This document shows positions 28,503 through 43,237 of a stretch of DNA of 64,000 nt, piece after piece. Position 1 is the stretch's first letter. Every line of letters begins with the position of its first letter. The stretch covers positions 682,001-746,000 of the forward strand of contig JNJD01000006.1 of assembly GCA_000702685.1 (NCBI GenBank), written 5' to 3'. A program made the position numbers and the translations under genes. The stretch comes from Lachnospiraceae bacterium AC2028. GTDB taxonomy: Bacteria; Bacillota; Clostridia; Lachnospirales; Lachnospiraceae. Below the pieces are notes generated by a model. That model saw only the letters and a program-made list of their open reading frames with translations. It did not search any database and had not been told where the DNA came from.

Positions 28503-28531
28503 GTGAACGGAGGAACCGTCCCCTCGTTCAC
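28503..28531 (-). repeat. REP-like repeat, full copy at the transposase stop codon
   Basis: 29 bp. The transposase TGA (28530-28528) is the TGA of the GTGAAC arm. Confidence 0.93.
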
Positions 28532-29289
28532 CCTTTTGTCACGATCTTATGAACCATCGTCTTTGATCTTCCGGTCAATCTGGCAATCTGTGATAAAGAT
28601 AATCCGTTTTTATGCAATTGCAATACATAGGACTCCTGCTTTTCTTTAGGTGAGTTCTGATAATCAGCAACCGTCCCGCATCCCGTGATCTGAAACATCT
28701 TTCTTTTCATCTCTTCATCACTCATTCTCGTTCTGACAGCAGAAATATCTAAAGCCGAATCTTCGTTGCTTTCATTTAAAAACTCAATCAGTTTTTCTTT
28801 TTCGCCTGCGATTTCGATTGCGAGTGCAACATCCGTGATATGATCGGCTCGACCGGCATAAGCACCGTAACTGCTCCATATATAATTTCCGGGCTGTGTT
28901 TCAATACCGGCTTTCATCGGATTCTGGATAATGTACCGAAGAACAGTCAGGAAGTACTTATCATTCTCAACCGTCTCACTTTTATACCTGTCCTGAAAAA
29001 GATGACCTACGCGCCCATACTTGTCATTAAAAAACTGTACATATCTGCAACCGATACGTTTCAAAATCACATCTATATCCTCAGTCACAATCCCGATAAG
29101 GATATGTACGTGATTGGACATAAGACAATATGCATAGATATGACATTCAGATACTTTGATGCAATCACGAAGGATAAACAGAAATTTCTTTTTATCTTCA
29201 TCCTCTTCGAATAAATCCTGTCTGTTAATCCCACGCAGCATTACGTGATAAATATTGGTCGAACTCTTTTTTCTGGCACATCTGGGCAT
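28528..29289 (-). CDS. REP-associated tyrosine transposase (RAYT, Y1/HUH)
   Basis: 253 residues. IS200-like Y1 domain: YHVMLRGINRQDLF at the N-terminus, the metal-binding HUH motif in MSNHVHILIG (HVH at about 60-62), and a catalytic Tyr in VLRYIIQNPMKAG (about 119). The C-terminus has a small HTH (LSLSQIARLTGRSKTMVHK). Single-copy housekeeping-like RAYTs are known to mobilise or maintain REP hairpins. About 15 related hairpins cluster within 15 kb of this gene. AGGAGG lies before the ATG. The stop codon is inside a repeat copy. Confidence 0.92.
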   Translation of the reverse strand: MPRCARKKSSTNIYHVMLRGINRQDLFEEDEDKKKFLFILRDCIKVSECHIYAYCLMSNHVHILIGIVTEDIDVILKRIGCRYVQFFNDKYGRVGHLFQDRYKSETVENDKYFLTVLRYIIQNPMKAGIETQPGNYIWSSYGAYAGRADHITDVALAIEIAGEKEKLIEFLNESNEDSALDISAVRTRMSDEEMKRKMFQITGCGTVADYQNSPKEKQESYVLQLHKNGLSLSQIARLTGRSKTMVHKIVTKG

Positions 29290-29656
29290 TCACCTGCCTC
29301 CTGATAATATGCGTGAGATGAATGCACATATGGGAATCGATTATCCGACTCGATAGCCGGTCAGTTCAATGCATATCTTTTCTGAGATTATTATTCCAAT
29401 ATTCAGTATTCATCTCCCTGTCGTTATGGAATGTACGATGTAATAAGAAAGCGTTGTGTCATTTCGATTATTGACACAATATATCATACTGTGCCATAGT
29501 GTCAATAGTTTTTTGACACAATATAAAAATCAGGATGTCCGCTAATTGAATATCCTGAAATATGTATATTTGCCGGGTGAAATGAGGAACCGTCCCCTCG
29601 TTCACACACCTAATGGTAACTATTGACTGTATAATGATTTGATAATTATAATGTAT
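29290..29656. promoter_or_regulatory. Transposase upstream region with TGACACAAT motifs
   Basis: No supportable gene. TTGTGTCA (29454-29461) and TGACACAA (29472-29479) form a perfect inverted repeat with 10-bp spacer, and another TGACACAAT lies at 29514-29522. On the minus strand TTGACA near 29508, 16 nt, TATATT is a possible promoter for the transposase. A 15-codon frame with AGGGAGATG (about 29370-29415) could be a leader peptide but cannot be supported further. A REP-like copy is at 29577-29605. On the plus strand TTGACT (29623-29628), 18 nt, TATAAT (29647-29652) serve brnT. Confidence 0.5.
29577..29605 (-). repeat. REP-like repeat, full copy
   Basis: 29 bp with left arm GTGAAA, right arm GTTCAC. 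Lies between the divergent transposase and brnT promoters. Confidence 0.85.
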
Positions 29657-29944
29657 ATGGATAATATATCTTTTGAATGGGATGACCATAAAAATCAAAT
29701 AAACATTAAAAAGCACCAAATATCATTCGCAGAAGCAATGTCAGTCTTCTACGATGACTATGCCATTGTTTTTGATGATCCGGATCACTCTATCGAAGAG
29801 GACAGATTTCTTATCATAGGGAAAACGATCAAAGAAAAAACATGTATTGTGAGCTATTGCATAAGAAAAAGAGATGTAATCCGGATTATTTCCGCCAGAA
29901 AAGCCACCAAAAGAGAAAGAGAATACTATGAAGAAAACCGATGA
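29657..29944 (+). CDS. brnT: BrnT-family toxin
   Basis: 95 residues from ATG 29657. ISFEWDDHKNQINIKKHQISFAEAM (given as FEWDDHKNQINIKKHQ then ISFAEAM) and RIISARKATKRERE YYEE are the BrnT ribonuclease signatures (RelE-like fold). Overlaps brnA by 17 bp. The -10 TATAAT at 29647-29652 puts the transcript start at or just after the ATG, so the message may be leaderless; upstream ATG 29651 or TTG 29639 are alternatives. Confidence 0.9.
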   Translation: MDNISFEWDDHKNQINIKKHQISFAEAMSVFYDDYAIVFDDPDHSIEEDRFLIIGKTIKEKTCIVSYCIRKRDVIRIISARKATKREREYYEENR

Positions 29945-30161
29945 GATGAAAAAAGAATACAATATAGCCGAATTAAATCCGAAGAAAAATCCCTATGCAA
30001 AAAAATTGAAAAAACAGATATCTATCAACATAAACAATTATGTGATCGATTATTTCAAAGAGCAATCTGCCGAAACAGGAATTCCATACCAGACACTTAT
30101 CAATCTGTACCTTACAGATTGTGCTGACAATAAAAGAAAACTATCTTTCACTTGGAAGTGA
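29928..30161 (+). CDS. brnA: BrnA-family antitoxin
   Basis: 77 residues. C-terminal ribbon-helix-helix segment (KQISININNYVIDYFKEQSA, then ETGIPYQTLINLYLTDC) typical of BrnA/CopG-type antitoxins that bind BrnT and repress the operon. Starts inside brnT, so translation is coupled. Confidence 0.88.
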   Translation: MKKTDEMKKEYNIAELNPKKNPYAKKLKKQISININNYVIDYFKEQSAETGIPYQTLINLYLTDCADNKRKLSFTWK

Positions 30162-31651: not shown

Positions 31652-33145
31652 TCATTTCTGCAGGATATGGTATATCTGCTCCATGAGTTTCATGTTGCCC
31701 ATGATGACGAGTGCGATGTTCTTCTTGGCGCGGCTGAGTCCGTGGAAGAGATTCATTATCCTCGAGGTTTCTCCGCCAGCTTCCGATTCGGTGTTTCTCA
31801 GGAATCTCTTTTCATCATAGTAAAAAGAATCATCAAGGAGCATCACCACCTTGTCGAATTCCTTGCCGGTAACGGATGCGGATTCGATGCGTGTGAGTGC
31901 TTCGCCGGGGAAGCTTTCCATCGCGCTGATATCGATACCGAGCCCGCTGTCCCAGATGAACATATATCCTTCTTTTTCATAGAACCTTATCAGGTTCATC
32001 GCTTCCTGCGTATCGACGCCGTATGCAACGGACACATTCGGATACTCCCTCTTGTACATCTTGGATGCGGAAAGGAATGTCCTTAAAAATGTCGAGAGTT
32101 CATTGTTCATCCTGATCTTGTTGGTCAGCTTGAAGCCCTTGAAATCATCGCGCTTTTCAAAGACCGCAGCACCCATTCCGAGTCTTTCTTTTTCGGATAC
32201 GCAGAGGGCATCGTCATAGGAAATGATGACCGGCGCATTCCACTTCCTGCTGTATGCGCAGACAAGATCGAATGCCTTCTCTCCCATGCCGTGGCCTTCA
32301 TCGATGAATATGGCCGCATATTCCTTCGTCACATCGGGAACAGTGTTCTTGTCGCAGTAATAGAAATCTATCCTCTTAAGGCGCTCGTCGAGCTGCTGAA
32401 GCTCGCTTCTGTGTGAACCGAAATGGAAAAGACAGACCGGATTCTTTCGCGACATGCTCATCGCGATATCGTACAGAAGTATCGTCTTGCCGGTGCCGGG
32501 AAGACCCGTGAAGCCCTGGAGCATGGCACCGGATGATATGTTCTTAAGTATCTGCTTTTTGATGTCGCGCTGCTGGAAGGTGAGAAAATATTCCTGGCGC
32601 AGGAATCTTCCGGGATCCGTGATCGGTGAGATCAGGTATTTATCTTCCTTGAAAAGCTCCTCGATATCGCCCGTGTATATGCCGTCCTGATTGTCCAGGA
32701 GAACGCCCAGCTCCTCAAAGGTACTGTCAACAAGCCTTCCGCTGTTTGAAAGCCTTACGAGCATGTCCCGGCCGCTTATATAGGTATAGTAGTAAACGGG
32801 TTTTCCAAGCGTGGAGAGATAATATCTGTTCTGGATGAGCTGGCTTCGTATCGCTTCGGGAGATACGTTACCGCTCTTGAGTTCTATGTTGACTATCTGG
32901 TCGTCAGCGATGCGCAGGAGATCGAATTCTTTTCCGAGCTTTTGCATCGTGTAAGAATAATAGAAAGTAAGTGAGCAGGCATCGGAACACACAGGCTGCA
33001 GCCTTTCCGAAAAAAGCCTGAGCCCCTCGGTTTCCCATTCGCGGATCTTGATATTCCTTCCGCGCCCGGACATCTGTCGTTCAACCTTCGACATCAGCTC
33101 GGGATCGTTTAACCTTGTGAGTGCATAGATGTTGATGGGTTTCAT
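31652..33145 (-). CDS. PD-(D/E)XK-like domain fused to a superfamily-1 helicase (DUF2075-like)
   Basis: 497 residues. Residues about 60-130 hold EFDLLRIADDQIVNIELKSG, spacing of Asp and ExK as in restriction-type nucleases. From about residue 195 comes a helicase/ATPase: Walker A GLPGTGKT, Walker B AAIFIDEGHG, a motif III-like VIISYDD, and a C-terminal motif VI HGLSRAKKNIALVI. The combination suggests a DNA- or RNA-processing enzyme, possibly defence- or repair-related, in a repeat-rich accessory region. Monocistronic. Nuclease activity is inferred from one motif only. Confidence 0.75.
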   Translation of the reverse strand: MKPINIYALTRLNDPELMSKVERQMSGRGRNIKIREWETEGLRLFSERLQPVCSDACSLTFYYSYTMQKLGKEFDLLRIADDQIVNIELKSGNVSPEAIRSQLIQNRYYLSTLGKPVYYYTYISGRDMLVRLSNSGRLVDSTFEELGVLLDNQDGIYTGDIEELFKEDKYLISPITDPGRFLRQEYFLTFQQRDIKKQILKNISSGAMLQGFTGLPGTGKTILLYDIAMSMSRKNPVCLFHFGSHRSELQQLDERLKRIDFYYCDKNTVPDVTKEYAAIFIDEGHGMGEKAFDLVCAYSRKWNAPVIISYDDALCVSEKERLGMGAAVFEKRDDFKGFKLTNKIRMNNELSTFLRTFLSASKMYKREYPNVSVAYGVDTQEAMNLIRFYEKEGYMFIWDSGLGIDISAMESFPGEALTRIESASVTGKEFDKVVMLLDDSFYYDEKRFLRNTESEAGGETSRIMNLFHGLSRAKKNIALVIMGNMKLMEQIYHILQK

Positions 33146-33200
33146 GATATAAGTATGAAACTAAAAGGCTGAGATTTCAAACTCTTTTACAAAATAAAAT

Positions 33201-33224
33201 GAGGCAGTCCTTTCGGACTGCCTC
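33201..33224 (-). terminator. Terminator of the lipoprotein operon
   Basis: GAGGCAGTCC, loop, GGACTGCCTC, then ATTTTATTTT on the minus strand. Confidence 0.85.
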
Positions 33225-33257
33225 AAGTCCCCCCGAATAAAACCCTTTCGGGATTAT

Positions 33258-33446
33258 TCAGTTCATTCTGACTGCCCAGGCGAAGTAAAGCGTAAGAATT
33301 ATGAACACAGCCGATGCAAATGCAAGCAGAATGCATACGATCATTGCGATCATCTTCGCCATTTTATTTTCTTTTATCTGCGTGGTGACATAAACGATCC
33401 CGAATATGCTGCACAGCAGAATAAGAACGGCTAAGGTCATTACCAT
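33258..33446 (-). CDS. Small two-helix membrane protein
   Basis: 62 residues with hydrophobic helices at about 3-21 and 30-57. AGGAG precedes the ATG, which lies 11 bp after the lipoprotein gene. Last gene of a four-gene operon. Function unknown. Confidence 0.7.
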   Translation of the reverse strand: MVMTLAVLILLCSIFGIVYVTTQIKENKMAKMIAMIVCILLAFASAVFIILTLYFAWAVRMN

Positions 33447-33457
33447 GGATTTATCTC

Positions 33458-34327
33458 CTACTGGTCAAGTCTCTCAAACATTACTTCTCCGTCGATTCCG
33501 TCATCCTCGGTGTTATCGCTTTCCCATCCGAGCATTCCGCCCTCGGTCATATAGAATCTTCCGGTACCGTTATCGTATATGTCCTCGTCTTCATAGCCGC
33601 CGTCTTCATCGTATGTACGGTGATAATAAAGTGCATCGGTATATACGAGTTCATCGCCGCTTCCGCCGTAGGCAGCACCTGTGATGGCCCATACGGATTC
33701 ATCGGAAGCACTGTTAGACCAGTTGACAACGATGGTGTAGCTGTCTTCGGATTCCTTGGATATCTCGATAAGGCATCTTCCGAAATCGGGCTCGGTGTAT
33801 CTTCCGGTGAAATCAACAACGCCCTCTTCGCCGCTGTCATCAACGACATTGGGATTGGGATATGCTGAGAATGCATCATATGCAAAATCCTTAACATCCG
33901 AATCATAGATATAGCTGAATCTGCGGTCTACGGTATTCTCAGCACCTACGACAAACACGATATCGGTATTGTCATCGCCGGTATTATCAATAAATTCGAT
34001 CGAAAGCTTCTCATACTCTTCGTCGGAAAGCTTCTCGGGAAAGTCTATGGTCTTAAAGAGCTCCTGATTTTCCCGGTCATAGTAAAGCTCTGCTCTGTCG
34101 GCGAAAAGACATACACATACATCAGTGTCGGTTCCGTCAAGAGAAAGGGTTCCGTAATCATCGATGGTTCCCCAGGTTCTCCAGTCAGCTCCCTCAAGCT
34201 GCTGGTCATTTGATGAACCTCCGTTACTTCCTCCGTTGTTTACATCAGCCGCACCTCCGCATCCGCAGATGCTGAGAACGCATGCGGCTCCGATCGCAAA
34301 AAGTTTTGTTAAATTCTTTATATTCAT
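33458..34327 (-). CDS. Lipoprotein, acidic, unknown
   Basis: 289 residues from ATG 34327 (GGGAG upstream). Lipobox SICGC (Cys about 23), Gly/Asn/Ser-rich linker, then a secreted acidic domain with repeated beta strands (WAITGAAYGGSGDELVYTDA). C-terminal half (FTGRYTEPDFGRCLIEI ... GRFYMTEGGMLGWESD) has the layout of lipocalin-like calycin domains that test for conserved small folds. Third gene of the operon. Confidence 0.8.
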   Translation of the reverse strand: MNIKNLTKLFAIGAACVLSICGCGGAADVNNGGSNGGSSNDQQLEGADWRTWGTIDDYGTLSLDGTDTDVCVCLFADRAELYYDRENQELFKTIDFPEKLSDEEYEKLSIEFIDNTGDDNTDIVFVVGAENTVDRRFSYIYDSDVKDFAYDAFSAYPNPNVVDDSGEEGVVDFTGRYTEPDFGRCLIEISKESEDSYTIVVNWSNSASDESVWAITGAAYGGSGDELVYTDALYYHRTYDEDGGYEDEDIYDNGTGRFYMTEGGMLGWESDNTEDDGIDGEVMFERLDQ

Positions 34328-34338
34328 AGTATTCTCCC

Positions 34339-35133
34339 TCAACCCTGTCCTTCTGCAGGAACAAGTCTTTCGCTTCCGCCGTTTCCGAAATAGATGATAT
34401 CTTCCTCGCGCTCACCGGTGTAGCATCCTGCCCAGTAATTATTTCCTCCGGCAAAGAAGGAATAAATGGGAACCGCTGTTCCGTCGGGATACTCATCAAG
34501 CTCGATGATGATAACGCCTTCGGTCTCTGTATCGTCATCGTAGAAACGGATGGTATAAGTTCCGTCCTGACGGATCTGGATAAAGGCTACATCGTTATAA
34601 TTCTCATAATTCTCGGTATCCTGCTCCTGATAGATCCACTCGCCTGCGATATCATTGAATCCGATCTCATCGGCAAGTTCGGCAGGGAACTTCTCGGGAA
34701 GATGACCTACGGGAAAATACTCTTCCATGTAGATCTCATCAAAAAGTTCACCGTCTTCGGTAATTGTAAAAGTGGTGTACAGCTCACCGTCTTCGTCATA
34801 AACACTGAAGGTATCCTCGTCCTCTGCATAGAGAGTTCCCTCTACGGCAGTCTCACCGTATTCATTGACAAGGTGCCAGAAAAGCCCTTCGGTAACAACC
34901 CAGTAATTATGTCCCTTTTTGTAGAGCCAGACTCCTTCGGGAATATCATTTACATGATCGGGAGAGAGCATCTGCTGCTCTTCGGGCTCTTCCTCTTCTA
35001 CGGGTTCTTCCTCTTCAATTTCTTCCTCAACAGGAATGGGAGGCTCCTCGGTAACTTCTGCGGTTCCGCCGCATGCGGCAAGTGCACCGACCATCATTCC
35101 GGCCAAAAGCACAGCCAAAAACTTCTTTTTCAT
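34339..35133 (-). CDS. Lipoprotein with Glu/Pro-rich linker
   Basis: 264 residues. Signal peptide with lipobox ALAAC (Cys about 21), an unusually acidic linker (EEEIEEEEPVEEEEPEE, about 36-53), then a domain with two related halves (EGVWLYKKGHNYWVV and AGEWIYQEQDTENYEN), each beginning G-x-W like the sibling at 35157. Second gene of the operon. Probably exposed on the cell surface. Confidence 0.82.
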   Translation of the reverse strand: MKKKFLAVLLAGMMVGALAACGGTAEVTEEPPIPVEEEIEEEEPVEEEEPEEQQMLSPDHVNDIPEGVWLYKKGHNYWVVTEGLFWHLVNEYGETAVEGTLYAEDEDTFSVYDEDGELYTTFTITEDGELFDEIYMEEYFPVGHLPEKFPAELADEIGFNDIAGEWIYQEQDTENYENYNDVAFIQIRQDGTYTIRFYDDDTETEGVIIIELDEYPDGTAVPIYSFFAGGNNYWAGCYTGEREEDIIYFGNGGSERLVPAEGQG

Positions 35134-35156
35134 TTCTTCATATCCCCTTAATTTTT

Positions 35157-35942
35157 TTAATTACCTACTTCATCAAGGATCCACTGATCTACCGTATCAT
35201 CCGTGTCGGTTCTGTACAGTCCGTCGCAGGGATCGTAAAGAAGATAATCCGTATCAAACAACAAAAACGAATCTGTTTCACCGGAGGGAACAAATGTCAG
35301 GTTAACATATGCACCGTCATAAGTATATGTTCCCCACTCAATGTAACCGTTATCCCTGTTGCAGTAGAAATCCCAGTTCGAAGTGAAGATAAACCAGTCA
35401 TTGGGAGGTGTATTATATCCCTGCCAGTAACCTATGATATCGGACTGAAGATCATAGTCATCGTCATCATCGTCATCATTGTCATCATCTGAAGACAGGG
35501 AAGCTTCAAGCTCCGACAACTCAAGTACCTTCATGAATTCGGTTCCGTCATTGTCTGTGAGAAGTCCTCTCGAATATTCAAATTCCCAATGATAATTGTC
35601 TTCAGGTCCATTGAGAATAAGATTGCTTCCGTCAAACTCATAAGTACCTTCTTCACTCATTCCGCCATCCGAACTGTAATGATATGTTCCGTCAGGATAA
35701 AAGGTAAACTCCAGTACAAATACATTCTCTCCCTTCCAGACTCCGAGCAGTTCATCAACTTCATCCGGAGAAGCCTCGGTATATCCCGAATCGCTGTCAG
35801 ACCCTTCCCAGTCTCCGTCCCGGTCGATATCGTAATCTTCATCGTATTCGACATCATCGATATCGATATCCGCAGAAGATCCGCAGGCTGAAAATACGGA
35901 TAATGCGAGGACTCCCATAAGTATGGCGATTCTCTTTTTCAT
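35157..35942 (-). CDS. Lipoprotein with two G-x-W domains and Asp tract
   Basis: 261 residues. Lipobox FSAC (Cys about 20), acidic linker, then two similar domains, LLGVWKGENVFVLEFTFYPDG (given as LLGVWKGENV and LEFTFYPDG) and IIGYWQGYNTPP, separated by an Asp-rich tract (SSDDDNDDDDDDDYD). Such tracts often bind calcium. First gene of the lipoprotein operon. Its promoter shares the 18-nt-spaced motif found before the hybrid kinase gene and the lipoprotein gene at 39612. GAGGAGG lies before the ATG within an inverted repeat. Confidence 0.85.
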   Translation of the reverse strand: MKKRIAILMGVLALSVFSACGSSADIDIDDVEYDEDYDIDRDGDWEGSDSDSGYTEASPDEVDELLGVWKGENVFVLEFTFYPDGTYHYSSDGGMSEEGTYEFDGSNLILNGPEDNYHWEFEYSRGLLTDNDGTEFMKVLELSELEASLSSDDDNDDDDDDDYDLQSDIIGYWQGYNTPPNDWFIFTSNWDFYCNRDNGYIEWGTYTYDGAYVNLTFVPSGETDSFLLFDTDYLLYDPCDGLYRTDTDDTVDQWILDEVGN

Positions 35943-35950
35943 ATATATAA

Positions 35951-36011
35951 ATCCTCCTCATATAGAATCTTTACACGATGTCGATTATAAAGACTCATAT
36001 ATGAGGAGGAT
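35951..36011 (-). promoter_or_regulatory. 14-bp inverted repeat spanning promoter and ribosome site
   Basis: ATCCTCCTCATATA (35951-35964) and TATATGAGGAGGAT (35998-36011) are perfect complements, 33 bp apart. The left arm, read on the minus strand, contains the Shine-Dalgarno GAGGAGG of the lipoprotein operon. The right arm overlaps the -35 region. In a transcript begun further upstream the stem would bury the ribosome site. Confidence 0.65.
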
Positions 36012-36027
36012 ACATCCTAAAAGTATA
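35984..36027 (-). promoter_or_regulatory. Shared-motif promoter of the lipoprotein operon
   Basis: Minus strand: TATACTTTT (36027-36019), 3 nt, ATGTATCC (36015-36008), exactly 18 nt, TATAAT (35989-35984). Same architecture at 38811-38854 and 40643-40686. Confidence 0.75.
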
Positions 36028-36045
36028 ATTATTTTTCAAGTGCAC

Positions 36046-36651
36046 TCAGGCCAGGAAACGCCTTATATCTCCGCGTTTTTCAAGTCCGAGTTTTTCCTTC
36101 ACGGAAGCAACAAGCTTCTTGGTATAAGGCATCGAAATATGAAGAATATCACATATCTCACGGTCGGATCTGAATTCTGCCATAAGCCTTGCCGTCTCAA
36201 GTTCTCTTTCCGTAAGCGGTTCGGGAATGGAAGCCAAAAGAGTCTCGTCGAGTTTTCCCTTGTTCTCGACGTCCGAATACAGTTCTATGTAATGCTGCAC
36301 CCTTGCAAAGAGAACCTTTCCGGCAACGGGTTTTTTGAGATAATCTACGACATCCATCTCCAGGCCCCTGCACTCCGATACCTCATCAGTCATTCCGGTC
36401 AGGAAGACAACCGGGATCATCTTGAACTTATCGCTTGCCTTGAGCCTGCTGAGAACCTCGTAGCCGTCCATTTCCCTCATGCTTATATCAAGAAGTATGA
36501 GATTGGGAAGAGCATCCGTCATCTCCAGCTCCTTAAGAGCTTCTATTCCGGATGAAAAAGTTTCGACATCGTATAAAGCTTCGAGCTGGTTTTTCATCAG
36601 CAGAAGCATTACGCTGTCATCATCTATTACCATTACTTTCTTGCGAGTCAT
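36046..36651 (-). CDS. Response regulator, receiver plus LuxR-type HTH
   Basis: 201 residues. Receiver domain 1-125 with acidic pocket (MVIDDDS), phospho-Asp in LILLDISMREMDG, and Lys in YLKKPV. C-terminal LuxR/GerE HTH (about 143-201): LTERELETARLMAEFRSD, then REICDILHISMPYTKKLV. Overlaps the hybrid kinase gene by ATGA, so the two form a two-component pair. Confidence 0.92.
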   Translation of the reverse strand: MTRKKVMVIDDDSVMLLLMKNQLEALYDVETFSSGIEALKELEMTDALPNLILLDISMREMDGYEVLSRLKASDKFKMIPVVFLTGMTDEVSECRGLEMDVVDYLKKPVAGKVLFARVQHYIELYSDVENKGKLDETLLASIPEPLTERELETARLMAEFRSDREICDILHISMPYTKKLVASVKEKLGLEKRGDIRRFLA

Positions 36652-38777
36652 TGTACGGCAATCTCCTCCCTATACCTGGCAATTCCCTTTCTTACTCTTT
36701 CATATTCCGCAAGTATCAGGGGATTAACTTCCTTCGAAAAATCATCGTCTCTCCTGCGCTCCACAGTTTCTGCAAGCTCCGCAAGAAGATAAGCTCCTAT
36801 GCCCTTGGCCACGGACTTGACCGAATGTATCTGAAGGTAATAATCATCTGTAAATGACTGACCTTTAAGATTTGCGATATTTGAATCGGCATATTCTTCA
36901 AACAGTTCGGCTCTTGTCTCGAATTCTCCGGTATTGCCCGCACAATATTCCAGCGCGAGCTTGAGATCTATGCCGAACGGAATAAGAAAGCTCTGTCCGA
37001 TCTCAATCTTCTCGGGCGAAAGTCCCTTCTCATCTACTGCATCAAGCTCAACTATCTTATCCGGAATGAATTCCGCAATAGTCTTAAGAAGCCTGGTCAG
37101 GCTTACGGGCTTTGCAAGGAATCCGCTGAATCCCATGGACATAAGCTTACTTTCTACTCCATTCATTATATCCCCTGTAAGGGCAATAACGGGAGTATCA
37201 AAATCGGGATAGTCTTCCTTTATCTTGGCAAGAGTCTGCATTCCGTCCATATGCGGCATACGGATATCCATAAATACCAGATCGTAATCCTTGATGTCGA
37301 TCATCTCGACGGCTTCATATCCGCTCTCTACATCATCCACCTGTATAAGTGCGGGCTCGGTGAATTCACGTATTACCTTCCTGTTATAAGCATTGTCATC
37401 GACAACAAGGATACGTGCATCGGGCGCAATAAACTGATCCGACTTTTTCTTTTCATTGGGCAGCGGTCTTTCCTCTGCCTTCATATTGATGACAAGGACC
37501 TCCTTCTGAGGAATCCTTACGGTGAATATACTTCCCTTACCGAGTTCACTGTCGCATTTTATCGTGCCGCCCATTGCCTCTACAAGTTCCTTGACAATGG
37601 AAAGTCCGAGACCGCTTCCGCTTGTCTCCTTATAGACCTCCTCCACTCCGCGCTCATACGGGCTGAAGATCTCATCGATATATTCGGGAGCAATTCCGAC
37701 ACCGGTATCTTCTACCGCGATCTCAAGCATATCATCCTGTTTTACGGATAAATGTATGCTTCCTTTTTTCGTGTACTTGACCGAATTGCTGAGAAGATTA
37801 TCGGTTATCTTGCGGATGACGCTTTCATCACCGTTAAGATAAGCGGGGATATTTTTTGCAAAATCATACTTGAATTCCAGTCCGGATCTTGCGGCATTGA
37901 GTTTCCACACCTTGGCGATCTCGTCGAATACCTCCCTGGTATTCCAGGGCTCGGAAAGTATAATGTTCCTTCCGGCTTCTATCCTGGAAAGGTCGAGCAT
38001 ATCATCTATCATCGACAGCAAAAGCTCTCCCGATACATTACTGTCATTGACCCACTCCTTGATGCGTTCCGAAGAAGTATTGCTGACTATAAGTTCATTC
38101 ATTGCGAGCATCGTATTAAGCGGTGTTCTGACATCATGGCTCATCTTGGCAATGAAATCACTCTTTGCCTTATTGGCTTCATCCGCATCATGTATCGCAT
38201 CGTTAAGCTGCTGCTGCTTTTTCCTGTAAACACGTATCTGGAAATACATGGTTATCGCAAGGGACAGGGCCACAAGCGTCATATCCATGATGACACAGGT
38301 CATATAGAATTTCTCGTCATTATTGAGAGTGACGGGATGAAAATAGGAATAAAGTATCAGTGCTGCGTACCATACCAGCTCCATAGTGATCATAACGACC
38401 ATTGAGACTCCGTCGAGCAAAAAGGCCGTGAACACGATACCGAAAATAAAGAATGAGGGAATGCCGCCGTGATATCCTCCCTGGATAAAATACAGGAGAG
38501 TGAACAATCCCATGAATATCAGGAAAGCGGTAAGGATCATCGCCCTTTTATAGTTCCCGGTCTTATGGCAATAGTACATAAGTGCAACGGAGCCGACCAC
38601 TCCGAGGAGATCCGGAATGACCGCACTCGAACCGCGCAGTCCGTTGACCACACCCGTTATGATGCTGACAACGATGCCGCATACCGCAAGTATATTGAAA
38701 GCAATGACCTGTATCTCGCTGTCGGTAGCGAAAATGACAGATATCGCTTTATGAAGTTTTGAATTCTTTTTCTTCAT
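36648..38777 (-). CDS. Hybrid sensor histidine kinase with receiver and HPt-like domains
   Basis: 709 residues from ATG 38777 (GGAG 5 nt upstream). Six transmembrane helices (about 22-180), a short coiled linker, HisKA with DFIAKMSHDVRTPL (His about 214), HATPase_c with NLLSNSVKYT and GSGLGLSIVKELV, a receiver domain (RILVVDDN; phospho-Asp in LVFMDIRMPHMDG) and a C-terminal HPt-like domain (QIHSVKSVAKGIGA). A complete phosphorelay feeding the LuxR-type regulator. Its own promoter carries the shared motif, so the system may be in its own regulon or under the neighbouring OmpR-type regulator. Confidence 0.93.
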   Translation of the reverse strand: MKKKNSKLHKAISVIFATDSEIQVIAFNILAVCGIVVSIITGVVNGLRGSSAVIPDLLGVVGSVALMYYCHKTGNYKRAMILTAFLIFMGLFTLLYFIQGGYHGGIPSFFIFGIVFTAFLLDGVSMVVMITMELVWYAALILYSYFHPVTLNNDEKFYMTCVIMDMTLVALSLAITMYFQIRVYRKKQQQLNDAIHDADEANKAKSDFIAKMSHDVRTPLNTMLAMNELIVSNTSSERIKEWVNDSNVSGELLLSMIDDMLDLSRIEAGRNIILSEPWNTREVFDEIAKVWKLNAARSGLEFKYDFAKNIPAYLNGDESVIRKITDNLLSNSVKYTKKGSIHLSVKQDDMLEIAVEDTGVGIAPEYIDEIFSPYERGVEEVYKETSGSGLGLSIVKELVEAMGGTIKCDSELGKGSIFTVRIPQKEVLVINMKAEERPLPNEKKKSDQFIAPDARILVVDDNAYNRKVIREFTEPALIQVDDVESGYEAVEMIDIKDYDLVFMDIRMPHMDGMQTLAKIKEDYPDFDTPVIALTGDIMNGVESKLMSMGFSGFLAKPVSLTRLLKTIAEFIPDKIVELDAVDEKGLSPEKIEIGQSFLIPFGIDLKLALEYCAGNTGEFETRAELFEEYADSNIANLKGQSFTDDYYLQIHSVKSVAKGIGAYLLAELAETVERRRDDDFSKEVNPLILAEYERVRKGIARYREEIAVQ

Positions 38778-38810
38778 ATCTTCTCCGTAAACATACAAAA
38801 GTCTGATCAT

Positions 38811-38862
38811 ATTGTATATGTGCATCATTCGTGTGGATACATACGAAAAGTATACTAAAAGT
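38811..38862 (-). promoter_or_regulatory. Shared-motif promoter of the hybrid kinase operon
   Basis: Minus strand: two tandem 11-bp repeats ACTTTTAGTAT (38862-38852) and ACTTTTCGTAT (38851-38841), then GTATCC, exactly 18 nt, TACAAT (38816-38811). The stretch 38835-38870 matches 40667-40702 at 34 of 36 positions. Confidence 0.8.
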
Positions 38863-38920
38863 CTCTTTTTATAAAAAGAAGCAAATGATAACCTTTTTAT
38901 ATCAGAAAGGAGATTATGAC

Positions 38921-39463
38921 ATGAGTGAAACAAGAACATGTCCGAATTGCGGCGCTCCTGTTCCCGAGGGAATATGTCAGTATTGCGGTACTGTGTTTGA
39001 AAGCACGGCAGCTCCGGAAGATTATCCCGAAGTAATATGCAAATATGCCGGGATCACATTTCATGAAATAAGGTTCTATTCCAGCGTGATCCTGTTTTCC
39101 GTCATCGCCTCGATATGCATAATCTCACAGTCGGATTACCTCGAAGGAGTGATGTTTGCACTGGTTTTTTCACTTCCGGGGATCATCATAGGATTCGTAC
39201 TGATCAAAAAGATACTCACTTTTATAATGCTTACCTTAAGCGGAGCCAATGCGGACGGCGAGGTATACGGGTACAAGAACGATCTGATAAAGTACGGTGA
39301 TGATTACTGCCAGATTGCGGAGGTCATGGTCAATGCACCGGCCGGAAAAAAGGTCCTGCTGGTACCTCTCAACAAAACATCCCATCCCTATCCGCTGAAC
39401 AGCAGGGTTAAAGTAAAAACATATAAGGATTTCGCCAAGATAACCGGGTATGACCTGGTGTGA
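38921..39463 (+). CDS. Zinc-ribbon membrane protein
   Basis: 180 residues from ATG 38921 (AAAGGAG upstream). N-terminal zinc ribbon CPNCGAPVPEGICQYCG (about 7-23), two hydrophobic helices (about 53-75 and 80-105), then a cytoplasmic beta domain (ADGEVYGYKNDLIKYG). Divergent from the hybrid kinase operon and shares its intergenic region. Confidence 0.8.
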   Translation: MSETRTCPNCGAPVPEGICQYCGTVFESTAAPEDYPEVICKYAGITFHEIRFYSSVILFSVIASICIISQSDYLEGVMFALVFSLPGIIIGFVLIKKILTFIMLTLSGANADGEVYGYKNDLIKYGDDYCQIAEVMVNAPAGKKVLLVPLNKTSHPYPLNSRVKVKTYKDFAKITGYDLV

Positions 39464-39483
39464 AGAATATAAGGAACAAAAAG

Positions 39484-39564
39484 AAAGAGCGCTGCGAGAT
39501 GTGAACTGCACCCCGAATGTTTTGTCTAACATTCGGGGTGCAGTTCAATCTCGCGGCGCTCTTT
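39484..39564. repeat. Long 37-bp inverted repeat (stable hairpin)
   Basis: Left arm 39484-39521 and right arm 39528-39564 are complementary apart from one mismatch and one bulged base, with a 6-nt loop. Starts 20 bp after the zinc-ribbon gene. Much longer than other terminators in the window; possible terminator, small RNA precursor or miniature element. Confidence 0.85.
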
Positions 39565-39582
39565 GGATTTATAAAACTATCC

Positions 39583-39611
39583 GGAAAGCGGAGGAACCGT
39601 CCCCCGTTAAC
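39583..39611 (-). repeat. REP-like repeat, one arm degenerate
   Basis: 29 bp. Begins (minus strand) GTTAACGGGGGACGGTTCCT directly after the TGA stop of the lipoprotein gene; the far arm is decayed. Confidence 0.85.
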
Positions 39612-40592
39612 TCAGCCCATTCCCTCTTTTACAAAAACCGTACTTCCGTCGTCAAAGAGAATGATGGGAGTTCCGGACTGATCAAGATCCATAACGAAGA
39701 TCGTGCCGCTGATATCTTCTCCGTTCATCATATATGAACCGCCGTCTGCGCCTGAGGGAGTGATACTGCCTGAATACTGTGCTTCGCCTTCGATATAATA
39801 TGTGAATTTTCCGTCCGGAAGGATCTCATACCGGCTTGTACCGTCCTCGGATACCCAGGTTCCTTCTGCAGCTTCCATAAGTGCGGCCTCAAGTGAAGCG
39901 ACATCATATCCTTCAACGGGAGATTCAATGGGGCAGCTTCCGCAGAGATATTCCATGGATTCAAATACCGCATGACCGTCTACTACTGTGAAAGGATACT
40001 CGTAGGTATCGACTTCTCCGTTTTCATACCAGTCTCCGAGAACCATATAGCAATCCTGGCGATGGATCGTTACAATGACTTTTCCGGTCTCACCGTCCGT
40101 TTCGGCAGCAAGTTCAACCCATCCGATGGAAAGATCGTCGCCTCTTCCTGCGGGGCAGGCATAAAGGGCACCGTCAGATTCCATGTACATCTCGGTTCCG
40201 CTCATGGCATCTTTTACATAGTCACGATCAACTCTTTCGGAAAGATAGTCTTCAAGCTCCTGAAGAGTTCCGATGCCGGGTTCGGTTACACGATAGAATT
40301 CCATTTCATAACCATTAATCTCTCCGGTTACGGTATCCGAATAATCGGATTCCATTCCGCCCTCAAATCTGAACCACAGATCCTGGGCTTCCTTGAAGTC
40401 ATTGATCAGGGATTCCTCGGAAGGAGCATCGACATCGGCTACGGGATCGGTCTCGGGTTCCTTTTCGTTGTCCTCCCGTACATCTTCCACAACCTCTGCA
40501 GGTTCGGGCTCAGGCTGTCCGACTACCGTACCACCACAGGCTGTAAGAGTAATGGCAAGGCCTGTCATAAGCATTAATGATAATTTTTTCAT
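39612..40592 (-). CDS. Lipoprotein with shared-motif promoter
   Basis: 326 residues from ATG 40592 (AAGGAG upstream). Lipobox LTAC (Cys about 19), acidic linker (about 25-58), an N-terminal domain with two cysteines late (LCGSCP), and a C-terminal G-x-W domain (AEGTWVSEDGTSRYEILPDG given as AEGTWVSEDG, SRYEILPDG) similar in layout to the lipoproteins at 34-36 kb. Divergent from the OmpR-type regulator gene. Likely part of the same envelope regulon. Confidence 0.83.
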   Translation of the reverse strand: MKKLSLMLMTGLAITLTACGGTVVGQPEPEPAEVVEDVREDNEKEPETDPVADVDAPSEESLINDFKEAQDLWFRFEGGMESDYSDTVTGEINGYEMEFYRVTEPGIGTLQELEDYLSERVDRDYVKDAMSGTEMYMESDGALYACPAGRGDDLSIGWVELAAETDGETGKVIVTIHRQDCYMVLGDWYENGEVDTYEYPFTVVDGHAVFESMEYLCGSCPIESPVEGYDVASLEAALMEAAEGTWVSEDGTSRYEILPDGKFTYYIEGEAQYSGSITPSGADGGSYMMNGEDISGTIFVMDLDQSGTPIILFDDGSTVFVKEGMG

Positions 40593-40642
40593 AATCTTGA
40601 TTCTCCTTTTTTCTTCTCGTGAATCGTCTTCACGCTTTCTCA

Positions 40643-40694
40643 ATGATAATAAGGATAGGTGTCTGTGAATACATACAAAAAGTATACTAAAAGT
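40643..40694 (-). promoter_or_regulatory. Shared-motif promoter of the lone lipoprotein gene
   Basis: Minus strand: ACTTTTAGTAT (40694-40684), ACTTTTTGTAT (40683-40673), GTATTC, exactly 18 nt, TATCAT (40648-40643). Confidence 0.8.
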
Positions 40695-40782
40695 CTCTTT
40701 TTCCCCAAAAGCCTGAGTGATAGTATTTTTTGTGAACAGAACAGAATTTGCTTACAAGAGATAATTCTCCCTCCCTATACGG

Positions 40783-40814
40783 TCCCGTGGCTTTTTGGCC
40801 ACGGGATCTTTTTT
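40783..40814 (+). terminator. Terminator-like hairpin in the leader region of the OmpR-type regulator
   Basis: TCCCGTGGC, CTTTTTG-type loop, GCCACGGGA, then TCTTTTTT on the plus strand. No plus-strand gene precedes it, so it either ends a short RNA or attenuates the regulator operon. Confidence 0.7.
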
Positions 40815-40874
40815 GCATACATTCGGAATACATTTATGTGATAATGTCTATATGTGCACAAACGGAGGATGTTT

Positions 40875-41555
40875 ATGATCGAGATCTTATTAATCGAAGA
40901 CGACCCGGATATCGCGGATAATCTGCAGGAATATCTGAGCAATGTAAGCGGAGGCGAGTGGCGCATCCACATTTCCGACAACGGAAGCGATGGGCTTGAA
41001 CTTGCAACACAGACGCTTTATTCACTGATCCTGCTGGATATCGGACTTCCGGAGCGTGACGGATTCGAAGTGTGCAAAGCTTTAAGGCGCCGTGGCATAC
41101 AGACTCCCGTGATCTTCGTCACCGCAAGATATTCCGAGGAAGACGTTCTGAAAGGATACGAATGCGGCGGAGACGATTACATCATAAAGCCCTTCTCAAT
41201 GGCTCAGCTTGCCGCCAAGATCAAGGCATTTCTGAAAAGATACGGCGACAGCAGGCCTGCGTGCATTACATATCTCGATCTGACAGCCGACCGAAAAGAA
41301 AGAAAGCTATATCTGGGTGAAAAAGAGATTACTCTTCAGCCCAGGGAATTCGATGTTCTCTTTTACCTGATGGAACATCCGGAGCGCCTTGTTTCCAAGG
41401 AAGAGCTCCTTGCACGTGTGTGGGGTGCCGAGAGCGATGCACTTCCGCGAAATCTGGATAACCCGATCAAGAACATCCGTAAAGCAACAGAAACCTCCGA
41501 AGCTAAGATAGTCACGATGCGTGGCTATGGTTACAGACTGGAGACCAAAAAATGA
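40875..41555 (+). CDS. OmpR-family response regulator
   Basis: 226 residues from ATG 40875 (GGAGG 6 nt upstream). Receiver domain with IEDDPD, phospho-Asp in LILLDIGLPERDG, FVTARYS and IIKPFS. C-terminal winged helix (LQPREFDVLFYLMEHPERLV, SKEELLARVW, IVTMRGYGYRL). OmpR/PhoB-type regulators bind tandem 11-bp direct repeats, the pattern seen in the promoters at 38841-38862 and 40673-40694. Overlaps the kinase gene by ATGA. Confidence 0.94.
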   Translation: MIEILLIEDDPDIADNLQEYLSNVSGGEWRIHISDNGSDGLELATQTLYSLILLDIGLPERDGFEVCKALRRRGIQTPVIFVTARYSEEDVLKGYECGGDDYIIKPFSMAQLAAKIKAFLKRYGDSRPACITYLDLTADRKERKLYLGEKEITLQPREFDVLFYLMEHPERLVSKEELLARVWGAESDALPRNLDNPIKNIRKATETSEAKIVTMRGYGYRLETKK

Positions 41556-43237
41556 CAAAGAAAAAACTGATAAAAAGAAATATAAAAGAAGAACCAAAGA
41601 TCATTCTTTTCACTGCGATCGTATGTGCGGTGCTCTGCCTGCTTATGATCCCGCTTGTAAGAAATACCGTAGTATCATATGTCTACTCCATTGACGGACA
41701 AACTTATGCCAGACTCTATATGAGGCAGTATCTGAGCCGTTCGGAAAGCATTGAAGACGGAACTGCGGAGGAACCTAATACCGACGCCTTCGACTCCCAG
41801 GAAGATATCGTAAATGCTCTTTACGGTGCGTTTAACGATAAGTCCGCATTCTTGGAATCCGGGATCGGATTGCCGGGAGCGCCAATGATTTCTTTCCCGC
41901 TGTACAAATACGGCGGTGCAACATGGATTGCCGACAGGAATACCGGAGAACTTGTCACCAGAGGCGATTACGTAGTCCTGCGGGAAGGCGGAAAACGTAT
42001 GCTCTGTGACATAAGGGCATGTTATTCCGAAGAAGAATTAACCCGCATATGCGCGCTTTACTACAGTCCCCTTGATAAACCGGCATATTTAAACGACATC
42101 AGTGAATTTGAAGAACCTGTATACCCTTATATAGAAAAGTACGTCTACAGGGAGGGAATAGTCTATCCTCTTGTGATCACTTTTCGCGAGCCTGATGGGG
42201 ATATAAGCTTTTATTCGGATCTATCCTTTGAATACGCCCCTTCGGAAGTTACGGAAACAGAGGAATGTTTATTGGCTGACGACCTGCTGGATCCCGGTGA
42301 CCGGGCATATCAGATAGCTGCAAGTCTTGCAGATGAAAACTACAGACGTTTTGCATCAAATCTCACGAAGCTTCCCTCGGATAATATCCACGATTTCACC
42401 AGAGGATATATCGTTAAGTTAACATCTGAGATGACAGACAGATATATCATATGCCAGTCCGAAGTGATCAATTATAAGGGCATGCTGAACGCTGCCACAG
42501 CTGCTGCATGGTTCATCATCATCCTGTCTTGCTTCATCACCGCTCTTGTTCTATGCAGGAAAGCAAAAAGAAAAAGAGAAAAAGCCGAATACGAAAGAAG
42601 TGTTACAAATGCCCTTGCCCACAACTACAAATCTTCCCTGATGGTCGTAAGAAGCTGTGCCGAAAACCTGATCTGGGGCGTGCCCGATGAAAAGAAAGCA
42701 CAGTACGAGCAGAAGATAATCTCAGAGACGGACCGCATGAACGAAAGCACGGAGAAGATACTCTCTTTCTACAGAACCGGCGTCGCAGGATATGAACCGG
42801 CGGATGATGCCATAGATGCTTCCGCGATTTGCAGGGAACTTATCGGAAAGTATGAAAGCATATCCGCCGAAAGAAAGCTCGAATGGAAGGTGGATGATGC
42901 CGAGAAGTTCACATTCAAAGGTGATTCCGTACTGTTTGCCATGGCGATGGATAATCTGATCGGCAATGCCGCAAAATACGCCCTTAACGGATCGACGGTA
43001 AACATCAGGACTTATGCTACCGGAATGACACTCGAAAATAAGTGGAAGCCCGTGGACAAATTCCTCAAAAAGCCCGGACGTTTCTTCGAAAGCTTCGTAA
43101 CGGGCGACGACACTCCCGGAAGATCCAATTCCGGCCTTGGCCTCAGCGTAGCGAAAGACCTCTTCGAGCGCATGAAGCTTAAGATCACAGCAAAGGCAGA
43201 TACCGAGAAGGTTACTTTCGAGATCAAAAAGAAATGA
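41552..43237 (+). CDS. Sensor histidine kinase partner of the OmpR-type regulator
   Basis: 561 residues. Transmembrane helices at about 20-40 and 310-335 enclose a large extracellular sensor domain. The H-box is unusual, ALAHNYKSSLMVV in place of the common HELKTPL. HATPase motifs are normal: MDNLIGNAAKYA and SNSGLGLSVAKDL. The stop codon TGA (43235-43237) runs directly into TGAACAAGGG, a REP-like half copy. Confidence 0.9.
   Translation: MTKKKLIKRNIKEEPKIILFTAIVCAVLCLLMIPLVRNTVVSYVYSIDGQTYARLYMRQYLSRSESIEDGTAEEPNTDAFDSQEDIVNALYGAFNDKSAFLESGIGLPGAPMISFPLYKYGGATWIADRNTGELVTRGDYVVLREGGKRMLCDIRACYSEEELTRICALYYSPLDKPAYLNDISEFEEPVYPYIEKYVYREGIVYPLVITFREPDGDISFYSDLSFEYAPSEVTETEECLLADDLLDPGDRAYQIAASLADENYRRFASNLTKLPSDNIHDFTRGYIVKLTSEMTDRYIICQSEVINYKGMLNAATAAAWFIIILSCFITALVLCRKAKRKREKAEYERSVTNALAHNYKSSLMVVRSCAENLIWGVPDEKKAQYEQKIISETDRMNESTEKILSFYRTGVAGYEPADDAIDASAICRELIGKYESISAERKLEWKVDDAEKFTFKGDSVLFAMAMDNLIGNAAKYALNGSTVNIRTYATGMTLENKWKPVDKFLKKPGRFFESFVTGDDTPGRSNSGLGLSVAKDLFERMKLKITAKADTEKVTFEIKKK

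Follow-up and report, generated by a model that had tools for sequence, protein, structure and literature searches.

A promoter element shared by a hybrid kinase operon and lipoprotein genes in Lachnospiraceae, its candidate LuxR-type reader and a predicted hairpin around one of its promoters

The stretch of Lachnospiraceae bacterium AC2028 DNA analysed here (64,000 nucleotides of contig JNJD01000006.1, hereafter the window) contains three minus-strand promoters that share one sequence element. They precede a three-gene lipoprotein operon, an operon encoding a hybrid histidine kinase and a LuxR-type response regulator, and a lone lipoprotein gene, lipD; a second two-component system, with an OmpR-type regulator, lies next to them. 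Which of the two adjacent regulators reads the element, and how might lipoprotein genes that lie directly behind a regulator operon be expressed from their own promoter? An earlier note on this DNA had named the OmpR-type protein as the first candidate and the LuxR-type regulator as the second. Our analysis does not support the first choice and leads us to conclude that the element is most likely the binding site of the LuxR-type regulator encoded at 36046-36651. We further consider it likely that this regulator and the hybrid kinase drive the three promoters, with a hairpin that would block read-through at the lipoprotein operon.

On the minus strand, TATACTTTTNGNATGTATYC followed by 18 nt and TANNAT has exactly three matches in the window, at 35984-36027, 38811-38854 and 40643-40686, and the same pattern with a gap of 17 to 19 nt has no match in 100 dinucleotide shuffles of the window. 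The gap is 18 nt at all three sites, and the -10 hexamers are TATAAT, TACAAT and TATCAT, respectively. The predicted sites and the genes that they serve are as follows (handles beginning with G denote genomes, G000 being the one analysed here, those with L loci).

36008-36027, minus strand: predicted regulator site TATACTTTTAGGATGTATCC of the three-gene lipoprotein operon, with -10 box TATAAT at 35984-35989; orthologous sites in G006, G010, G013, G016, G024 and G026
38835-38854, minus strand: predicted regulator site TATACTTTTCGTATGTATCC of the hybrid kinase/LuxR-type regulator operon, with -10 box TACAAT at 38811-38816; 11 kinase sites are among the 41 compiled below
40667-40686, minus strand: predicted regulator site TATACTTTTTGTATGTATTC of the lone lipoprotein gene lipD, with -10 box TATCAT at 40643-40648
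33458-34324, minus strand: lipA, lipoprotein gene, start chosen by hand (the list of open reading frames has an upstream TTG)
34339-35133, minus strand: lipB, lipoprotein gene, from its open reading frame and orthologues
35157-35942, minus strand: lipC, lipoprotein gene, first in the operon, from its open reading frame
36046-36651, minus strand: LuxR-type (NarL/FixJ-like) response regulator, proposed activator of the three promoters on domain, co-occurrence and fold evidence
36648-38777, minus strand: hybrid histidine kinase (HyHK), HisKA-HATPase-REC with a C-terminal Hpt-like segment (His651), the proposed partner by Pfam and motif
39612-40592, minus strand: lipD, lone lipoprotein gene; off the kinase contig in G006, G008 and G016, and also present in G015, where the regulator was not found

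The single architecture, the 18-nt gap and the -10 boxes had all been described correctly in the earlier note, and its statement that the window holds no further copy extends to the source genome (2.77 Mb, 99.6% complete). There the 20-bp element at up to two mismatches occurs only as the three window copies, each before a lipoprotein or kinase target, and a reversed control pattern matches once. With a less strict model and with a pattern of 19 bp, one weaker match appears at C6:379900-379945, some 338 kb from the closest copy of the element. This match shares bases with the end of a 429-aa coding gene, has an ATG directly next to its -10 box and is common to G016; it probably reflects coding constraint or chance. 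The gene that follows it may be glycosyltransferase-like, judging by its sequence (loci L226 and L227).

Two of the three promoters carry a tandem form of the element (ACTTTTNGTAT twice, then GTATYC), which matches at 38835-38862 and 40667-40694 in the window and nowhere in the shuffles.

38841-38862, minus strand: ACTTTTAGTAT-ACTTTTCGTAT tandem 11-bp repeat of the kinase promoter
40673-40694, minus strand: ACTTTTAGTAT-ACTTTTTGTAT tandem 11-bp repeat of the lipD promoter

The repeat is where it had been reported, and the reported agreement of 34 of 36 bases is a fair count: the two promoters share 43 of 63 bases, and a single block accounts for 37 matches in 39 positions. It does not carry the conclusion drawn from it, that the element is of the OmpR/PhoB type. 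Among the 41 compiled sites the additional upstream ACTTTTAG copy is confined to the kinase and lipD promoters of this genome (0 of the 39 others), and the tandem repeat was rejected as a conserved feature of the element. The extra upstream stretch is probably copied sequence, so that the three local copies are not fully independent witnesses; of the claim of an exact spacing in three independent promoters, the spacing stands and the independence does not. We infer that lipD moved beside the kinase in this lineage, and that promoter sequence was copied, because it lies off the kinase contig in the three genomes named above and because the kinase directly faces the OmpR-type gene in G006, G010, G013 and G016. 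The independent evidence for the element is the set of sites in relatives.

Two side observations concern lipD. It lies here, together with a zinc-ribbon gene, between the OmpR-type gene and the kinase (both genes within 38921-40592 of the window), and the two genes are adjacent on other contigs in G015 and G016 (L082 and L083); the placement of the pair in this genome is apparently a recent move. The promoter stretches before lipD at L082 and L083 are identical, yet the OmpR-type genes of G015 and G016 differ, which may reflect cross-contamination of assemblies or recent transfer.

We compiled 41 sites from congeners and from loci of other genera. In 31 congeners it occurs at up to two mismatches at 34 places, 20 of which precede orthologues of the three targets; the remaining 14, all with two mismatches (two in G023 and one in G028 among them), were left out, and the reversed control pattern, with 17 matches in the same genomes, is about equal to these off-target places. 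As the earlier note had proposed to check, the element is conserved upstream of orthologues: it stands before the gene or operon in all seven congeners with a lipB orthologue and in all five with a lipD orthologue. A scan of named genomes gave 80 loci, of which 26 (L094-L119) contain a regulator orthologue of at least 62% identity. These 26 are titled Lachnospiraceae except for two Eubacterium sp., and are mostly metagenome assemblies (from rumen, omasum or horse faeces, where titled), with one isolate, AC3007; 23 of them have the element at up to three mismatches. Nineteen of these 26 regulator loci, those of other genera, contain 16 sites at up to two and 21 at up to three mismatches in 191 kb; the corresponding numbers for eight loci without a close regulator orthologue are 0 and 1 in 111 kb. 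All 21 other-genus sites precede the start of a correctly oriented open reading frame, 19 of these starts lying 46 to 108 bp downstream, and at L107 (6618) and L114 a lipoprotein start lies at +84 and +93 from the site. Targets in these genera are the hybrid kinase, the regulator gene itself (L117 and L118), lipoproteins and a coiled-coil family of about 500 aa.

The 41 sites give the consensus AAAAAG TATACTTTT A G T/G ATGTAT T/C, with positions 1-4, 7, 8, 11, 13 and 16 invariant. Five of them have three mismatches to the typed pattern (L100 at 6616, L108, L112 at 3716, L117 at 3688 and L118); one 3-mismatch place in L091 was left out, and of the weaker off-target sites of a laxer scan L226-L230 were considered further. 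Alignment A2 retains 35 sites, the kinase sites of G006 and G025, the lipoprotein-operon sites of G013 and G016, the lipD site of G016 and the lipoprotein site of L100 having been dropped as near-duplicates or for a spacing of 19. From site to -10 box the distance is 18 nt in 38 of the 41, the exceptions being the G006 kinase and the L100 lipoprotein (19 each) and G006 lipD (21, best match). With 18 nt between its end and the -10 box, a site covers the -35 position, and a scan for sigma-70 type promoters found none at the lipoprotein-operon start, as would be expected of an activator-dependent promoter. The fixed spacing supports the idea of an activator-type site at -35, and the sites taken together support that of a lipoprotein/kinase regulon. 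In the 41-site matrix the strongest self-similarity is inverted and centred at position 2.5 (AAAAGTATACTTTT; sum 4.00), a direct repeat at offset 11 summing to 2.92; because its left arm is weakly conserved, the inverted symmetry is only suggestive.

Three further observations touch the sites themselves. The coiled-coil family (L100-L103, L106, L107, L112 and L119; proteins starting MSDE..EETxALFVSxQKK) is a recurrent target in related genera. Two of its members have no Pfam match, and in G020, the sole congener with a homologue and one without a close regulator orthologue, there is no element in the 160 nt before that gene. At L112 (3700-3735) two copies of the site, in head-to-head orientation, overlap in the interval that separates the kinase from the coiled-coil gene, and one regulator-binding region may serve both directions. 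A variant site, TATACTTTTAGTATCTTATG, stands 19 nt from TATAAT before another lipoprotein gene in G010, G006 and G016 (L228, L229 and L230).

The distribution of the two regulators separates the candidates. A LuxR-type orthologue of at least 70% identity is present in 8 of the 31 congeners (G000, G006, G008, G010, G013, G016, G025 and G026), and in all eight the element precedes the kinase. An OmpR orthologue (E<=1e-70) is present in 12. G008 and G025 have the element and the LuxR-type regulator and no OmpR orthologue at this threshold, and in G026 the OmpR-type gene and the cluster lie on different contigs. Conversely, five genomes with the OmpR-type and no LuxR-type orthologue (G001, G014, G023, G027 and G028) have no element at up to two mismatches within 7.7-18 kb around the OmpR-type gene, one 3-mismatch place lying near it in G027; across their whole genomes G001, G014 and G027 have no match at up to two mismatches, and G023 and G028 have the two and one already mentioned. 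In 396 genomes of the family, for which at most eight candidates per genome were scored in the listed matches, the regulator was found at E<=1e-45 in two, G000 and G109, among the matches listed. AGTATACTTTTNGNATGTA at up to one mismatch has four matches in each of these two genomes (one of those in G000 being the doubtful fourth place above) and one in each of 13 others, and a control pattern never has more than two per genome. The four sites in G109, each on a contig of its own (L231-L234), precede lipoprotein genes, the gene of the regulator and that of a presumably TIR-like protein.

The OmpR-type gene has, moreover, a repeat of its own.

40817-40835, plus strand: tandem 11-bp repeat ATACATTCGGAATACATTT upstream of the OmpR-type gene, distinct from the shared element
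40875-41555, plus strand: OmpR/PhoB-type response regulator, an unlikely reader of the element judging by orthologues and its own repeat
41552-43237, plus strand: histidine kinase paired with the OmpR-type regulator, from its open reading frame and domains

Of 12 OmpR-type orthologues, 8 are preceded by an exact ATACATT-N4-ATACATT and two (those of G006 and G015) by a copy with one mismatch, and those of G027 and G028 lack it; a longer form of this repeat is single in the source genome at up to three mismatches. ATACATTCGGAATACATTT is probably the gene's own autoregulatory site. On co-occurrence and on this conserved repeat, the OmpR-type protein was rejected as the regulator of the element, whereas the LuxR-type regulator fits the co-occurrence. 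The two interlocked two-component systems envisaged in the earlier note come down to adjacency, which G026 lacks, and its self-contained regulon holds for the strong sites of this genome and not for relatives, where targets lie on other contigs.

The receiver domain of the regulator is recognized by Pfam (Response_reg, 2.7e-21, residues 6-118), D10-D12, D55, T85 and K107 are among the invariant columns of the orthologue alignment, and the recognition helix is near-invariant in 18 orthologues. NCBIfam models of TtrR (7-189), MctR (5-199) and FixJ (2-173) extend into its DNA-binding domain and PhoB/OmpR-type models, among the matches listed, end near residue 132, all of them scoring below their cut-offs. 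In the predicted structure (predicted local distance difference test 82.8) the listed elements of the C-terminal domain (148-199) are all helices, and a fold search with this model ranks StyR and FixJ at the top and VraR and LiaR within the top 15. For the kinase, HisKA, HATPase and receiver domains are called by Pfam and Hpt is not; His651 lies in all 21 aligned orthologues within an Hpt-like motif, HSxKSxAxGxGA, and the ArcB model aligns as far as residue 688. Kinases that supply NarL-family regulators through a phosphorelay typically combine HisKA, HATPase, receiver and Hpt domains.

Several observations weigh against the LuxR-type regulator as the reader. Its DNA-binding domain matches Pfam GerE at E 8.3e-4 and 19.4 bits, below the cut-off of 23.5. 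The OmpR-type proteins RpaA and MtrA also rank within the top 20 of the fold search, and full-length root-mean-square deviations are about 10-17, because of which that search alone is not decisive. L104, L110 and L116 contain the regulator and no element at up to three mismatches in the locus. G015 has the OmpR-type gene and a lipD site, and G024 a lipoprotein-operon site; the regulator orthologue was not found in the former (assembly 81% complete) and neither regulator in the latter (72% complete). Finally, the site counts are not independent, because the congeners are related by descent and several sites hardly differ from one another.

The sites of G015 and G024 would also suit a different explanation, in which the element is the promoter type of an alternative sigma factor, or the target of some other unlinked regulator, and the LuxR-type gene merely tends to adjoin it. 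A sigma factor would account equally for the very fixed spacing to the -10 box and the near-invariant core. We nevertheless regard this explanation as unlikely: the -10 boxes resemble an ordinary TATAAT, more than one site per genome occurs in the 396 family genomes only where the regulator is present, among the matches listed, and the regulator and kinase genes are themselves preceded by the element.

If the LuxR-type regulator reads the element, the order of the genes raises the second question. The kinase-regulator operon points straight at the lipoprotein operon, and 18 bp separate the regulator stop codon from the lipoprotein-operon site. That promoter lies within an inverted repeat.

35988-36011, minus strand: predicted hairpin 5' arm ATCCTCCTCATATATGAGTCTTTA, running from the last bases of the regulator site through the promoter spacer and into the -10 box by two bases
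35951-35973, minus strand: predicted hairpin 3' arm TAAAGATTC + TATATGAGGAGGAT, including the Shine-Dalgarno sequence of lipC

The spacer ATCCTCCTCATATA and the leader TATATGAGGAGGAT are perfect reverse complements, GAGTCTTTA and TAAAGATTC lengthen the stem, and the -10 box sits at the loop. In seven species RNA with both arms is predicted to fold at -26 to -36 kcal/mol and RNA that begins 6 nt past the -10 box, the assumed start of the promoter's own transcript, at -2.5 to -9.5. In RNA from the promoter itself the Shine-Dalgarno sequence is predicted to be unpaired with a probability of 0.35-0.57, and in read-through RNA with one of 0.00-0.01. By these models the Shine-Dalgarno sequence would be paired only in RNA initiated upstream, and the promoter lies in the 5' strand of the stem, the arrangement of the type known from phage T4 gene e. 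The arms covary across the seven species: 93.8% of alignment cells pair versus 88.8% in shuffles, 6 of the 23 pairs show two-sided changes versus 3.5 (8 of 500 shuffles as high), 11 cells are changed on both sides versus 4.4 (0 of 500 as high), and a shift of the partner arm by one to three columns lowers pairing to 44-65%.

Spacer-leader pairing was tested at all 41 sites against 300 dinucleotide shuffles each. It reaches p<0.01 at 14 of 20 lipoprotein promoters (9 of 13 operons, 4 of 5 lipD and 1 of 2 other lipoproteins) and at none of the 21 other promoters (11 kinase, 8 coiled-coil and 2 regulator), and z is at most -1.6 in 12 of the 13 operons. Among 1200 background -10-like places, three reach E<=-23 and 39 reach E<=-19. 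The stem takes several forms, with at least four different arm sequences inside one regulon. In G008 lipD and L100 it masks the Shine-Dalgarno sequence with arms unlike those of the window copy, CCTCCTTTAGTGTAA and CCCCTTTTC, respectively. L105, L107, L111, L114 and L119 have a GCTGC-type stem followed by a T-run that is terminator-like by eye, save that L107, the only scanned one of the five, is called an intrinsic terminator by the scan. The two lipoprotein promoters with a divergent upstream neighbour (G000 lipD and L117) have no hairpin, and G024, where a different upstream gene (a 646-aa open reading frame) ends just before the site, has kept it.

We envision a sequence of events in which the hybrid kinase would phosphorylate the LuxR-type regulator, and the phosphorylated regulator would bind the element, which would take the place of a -35 box. 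From this position, at a fixed 18 nt to the -10 box, it would activate the three promoters: that of its own kinase-regulator operon, in positive feedback, that of the lipoprotein operon behind it and that of lipD. Such feedback would flood the lipoprotein operon with read-through RNA. This RNA would fold the hairpin, which would hide the Shine-Dalgarno sequence in the clade of this genome or terminate transcription in related genera, whereas RNA from the nested promoter would start past the 5' arm and escape. Under this scheme no lipoprotein of the operon would be made unless the regulator activates the operon's own promoter. A broader proposal, to which we give about an even chance, is that Lachnospiraceae possess a self-insulating promoter, an activator site and -10 box wrapped in a hairpin whose 3' arm has served interchangeably over evolution as terminator or Shine-Dalgarno mask, such that read-through would never yield envelope lipoproteins and only their own regulated promoter would.

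Not every lipoprotein promoter has the hairpin, and this and other results count against it as a general rule. The lipoprotein operons of L111, L119 and L114 pair at p 0.010, 0.017 and 0.083, and in L119 the leader as a whole favours a different fold. L099 has no hairpin though its upstream gene is codirectional, and none of the 8 coiled-coil promoters has one, six of them lying behind codirectional genes (L100-L103, L107 and L119). Among five lipoprotein sites found later, L228 has p 0.02 and L231 p 0.07, and L229, L230 and L233 have no hairpin. At lipD in G006, G015 and G016 the stem is weaker and its nesting less clear (G016 being judged by its sequence identity to G015), and G008 lipD has a strong stem, yet the nearest called upstream open reading frame is 411 bp away on the minus strand. 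The number of further pair types in the arms is unremarkable against shuffles (101 of 500 as high). Lastly, the terminator scan calls none in the window copy, because of which a masked Shine-Dalgarno sequence is the better reading in this genome.

Two other explanations of the arms deserve consideration. Shine-Dalgarno purine runs that meet pyrimidine-rich spacers could pair as a functionless side effect, and the failure of L099 and of four of the five later sites to reach p<0.05 would suit such an accident. It is improbable, in our judgement, given stems that reach 23 pairs and contain two-sided changes, kinase and coiled-coil promoters that have the same site and pair at p<0.05 in 0 of 19 cases, and a lipD with a divergent neighbour that has no pairing. 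Somewhat less probable still is a DNA operator for a repressor: covarying arms would be expected of a DNA palindrome no less than of paired RNA, but the arm sequences vary by group (GCTGC type, CCTCCTTTAGTGTAA or CCCCTTTTC) while Shine-Dalgarno complementarity or a T-run recurs, and the L107 stem scans as a terminator. Least plausible by far of all the rival readings is that the OmpR-type regulator binds the element and merges both systems into one circuit. Its gene adjoins the cluster (divergent from the kinase in G006, G010, G013 and G016) and two promoters of this genome have an 11-bp tandem repeat, but the element (at up to two mismatches) and the OmpR orthologues part company in both directions, its gene has a conserved repeat of its own and the upstream ACTTTT copy is found in only 2 of 41 sites.

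Elsewhere in the locus, Pfam finds nothing for lipD and lipA and sub-threshold domains of unknown function only for lipB and lipC, and Rfam has no match in window 33000-42000. Two small overlapping genes at 29639-30161 on the plus strand resemble a BrnT/BrnA-type toxin-antitoxin pair, and 28528-29289 on the minus strand presumably encodes a REP-associated/Y1-type transposase.

A literature search, with most subscription journals outside its reach, found no paper on this regulon or on terminators and masks that alternate at a single position, and nothing direct on promoters nested in terminators or masking hairpins. For a two-component system of herbivore-gut Lachnospiraceae, most of them uncultured, our analysis proposes a complete regulon with its regulator, site, spacing and targets, and it reassigns the probable control of these targets from one adjacent system to the other. 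The type of regulon is ordinary. Tripartite hybrid kinases are paired with NarL-family regulators in BarA-UvrY and EvgS-EvgA, and here likewise a HisKA-HATPase-REC-Hpt-like kinase adjoins a response regulator with a putative LuxR-like helix-turn-helix. The kinase matches the TorS, BarA, ArcB and EvgS models, the scores among the best 25 of 150 model matches being far below the curated cut-offs, and the predicted targets here are Lachnospiraceae lipoprotein genes. OmpR/PhoB-type promoters have tandem 11-bp direct repeats; two of the three promoters here have an 11-bp repeat too, but its second copy is absent from 39 of 41 sites and the adjacent OmpR-type gene has a different tandem repeat. In class II activator promoters the site overlaps the -35 box, and the element, which ends 18 nt before the -10 box, resembles these in sequence; at the lipoprotein-operon start the scan finds no sigma-70 type promoter.

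The hairpin has its closest parallel in phage T4. In longer transcripts of the gene e leader the ribosome-binding site is concealed by a stem, and a late promoter within the 5' strand of that stem gives rise to transcripts that escape it (PMC3014915). If our reading of the hairpin is true, the lipoprotein operon would be a cellular counterpart of this T4 lysozyme read-through block, with terminator and ribosome-binding-site mask as alternatives at one position, and would provide a sequence signature to seek wherever a tightly controlled gene follows another operon. Compared with gene e, the logic would be the same, here predicted from sequence; the setting is a bacterial two-component regulon instead of a phage lysis gene with T4 late promoters, and the stem appears as a Shine-Dalgarno mask in one clade and as a terminator-like stem in others, at the same position.

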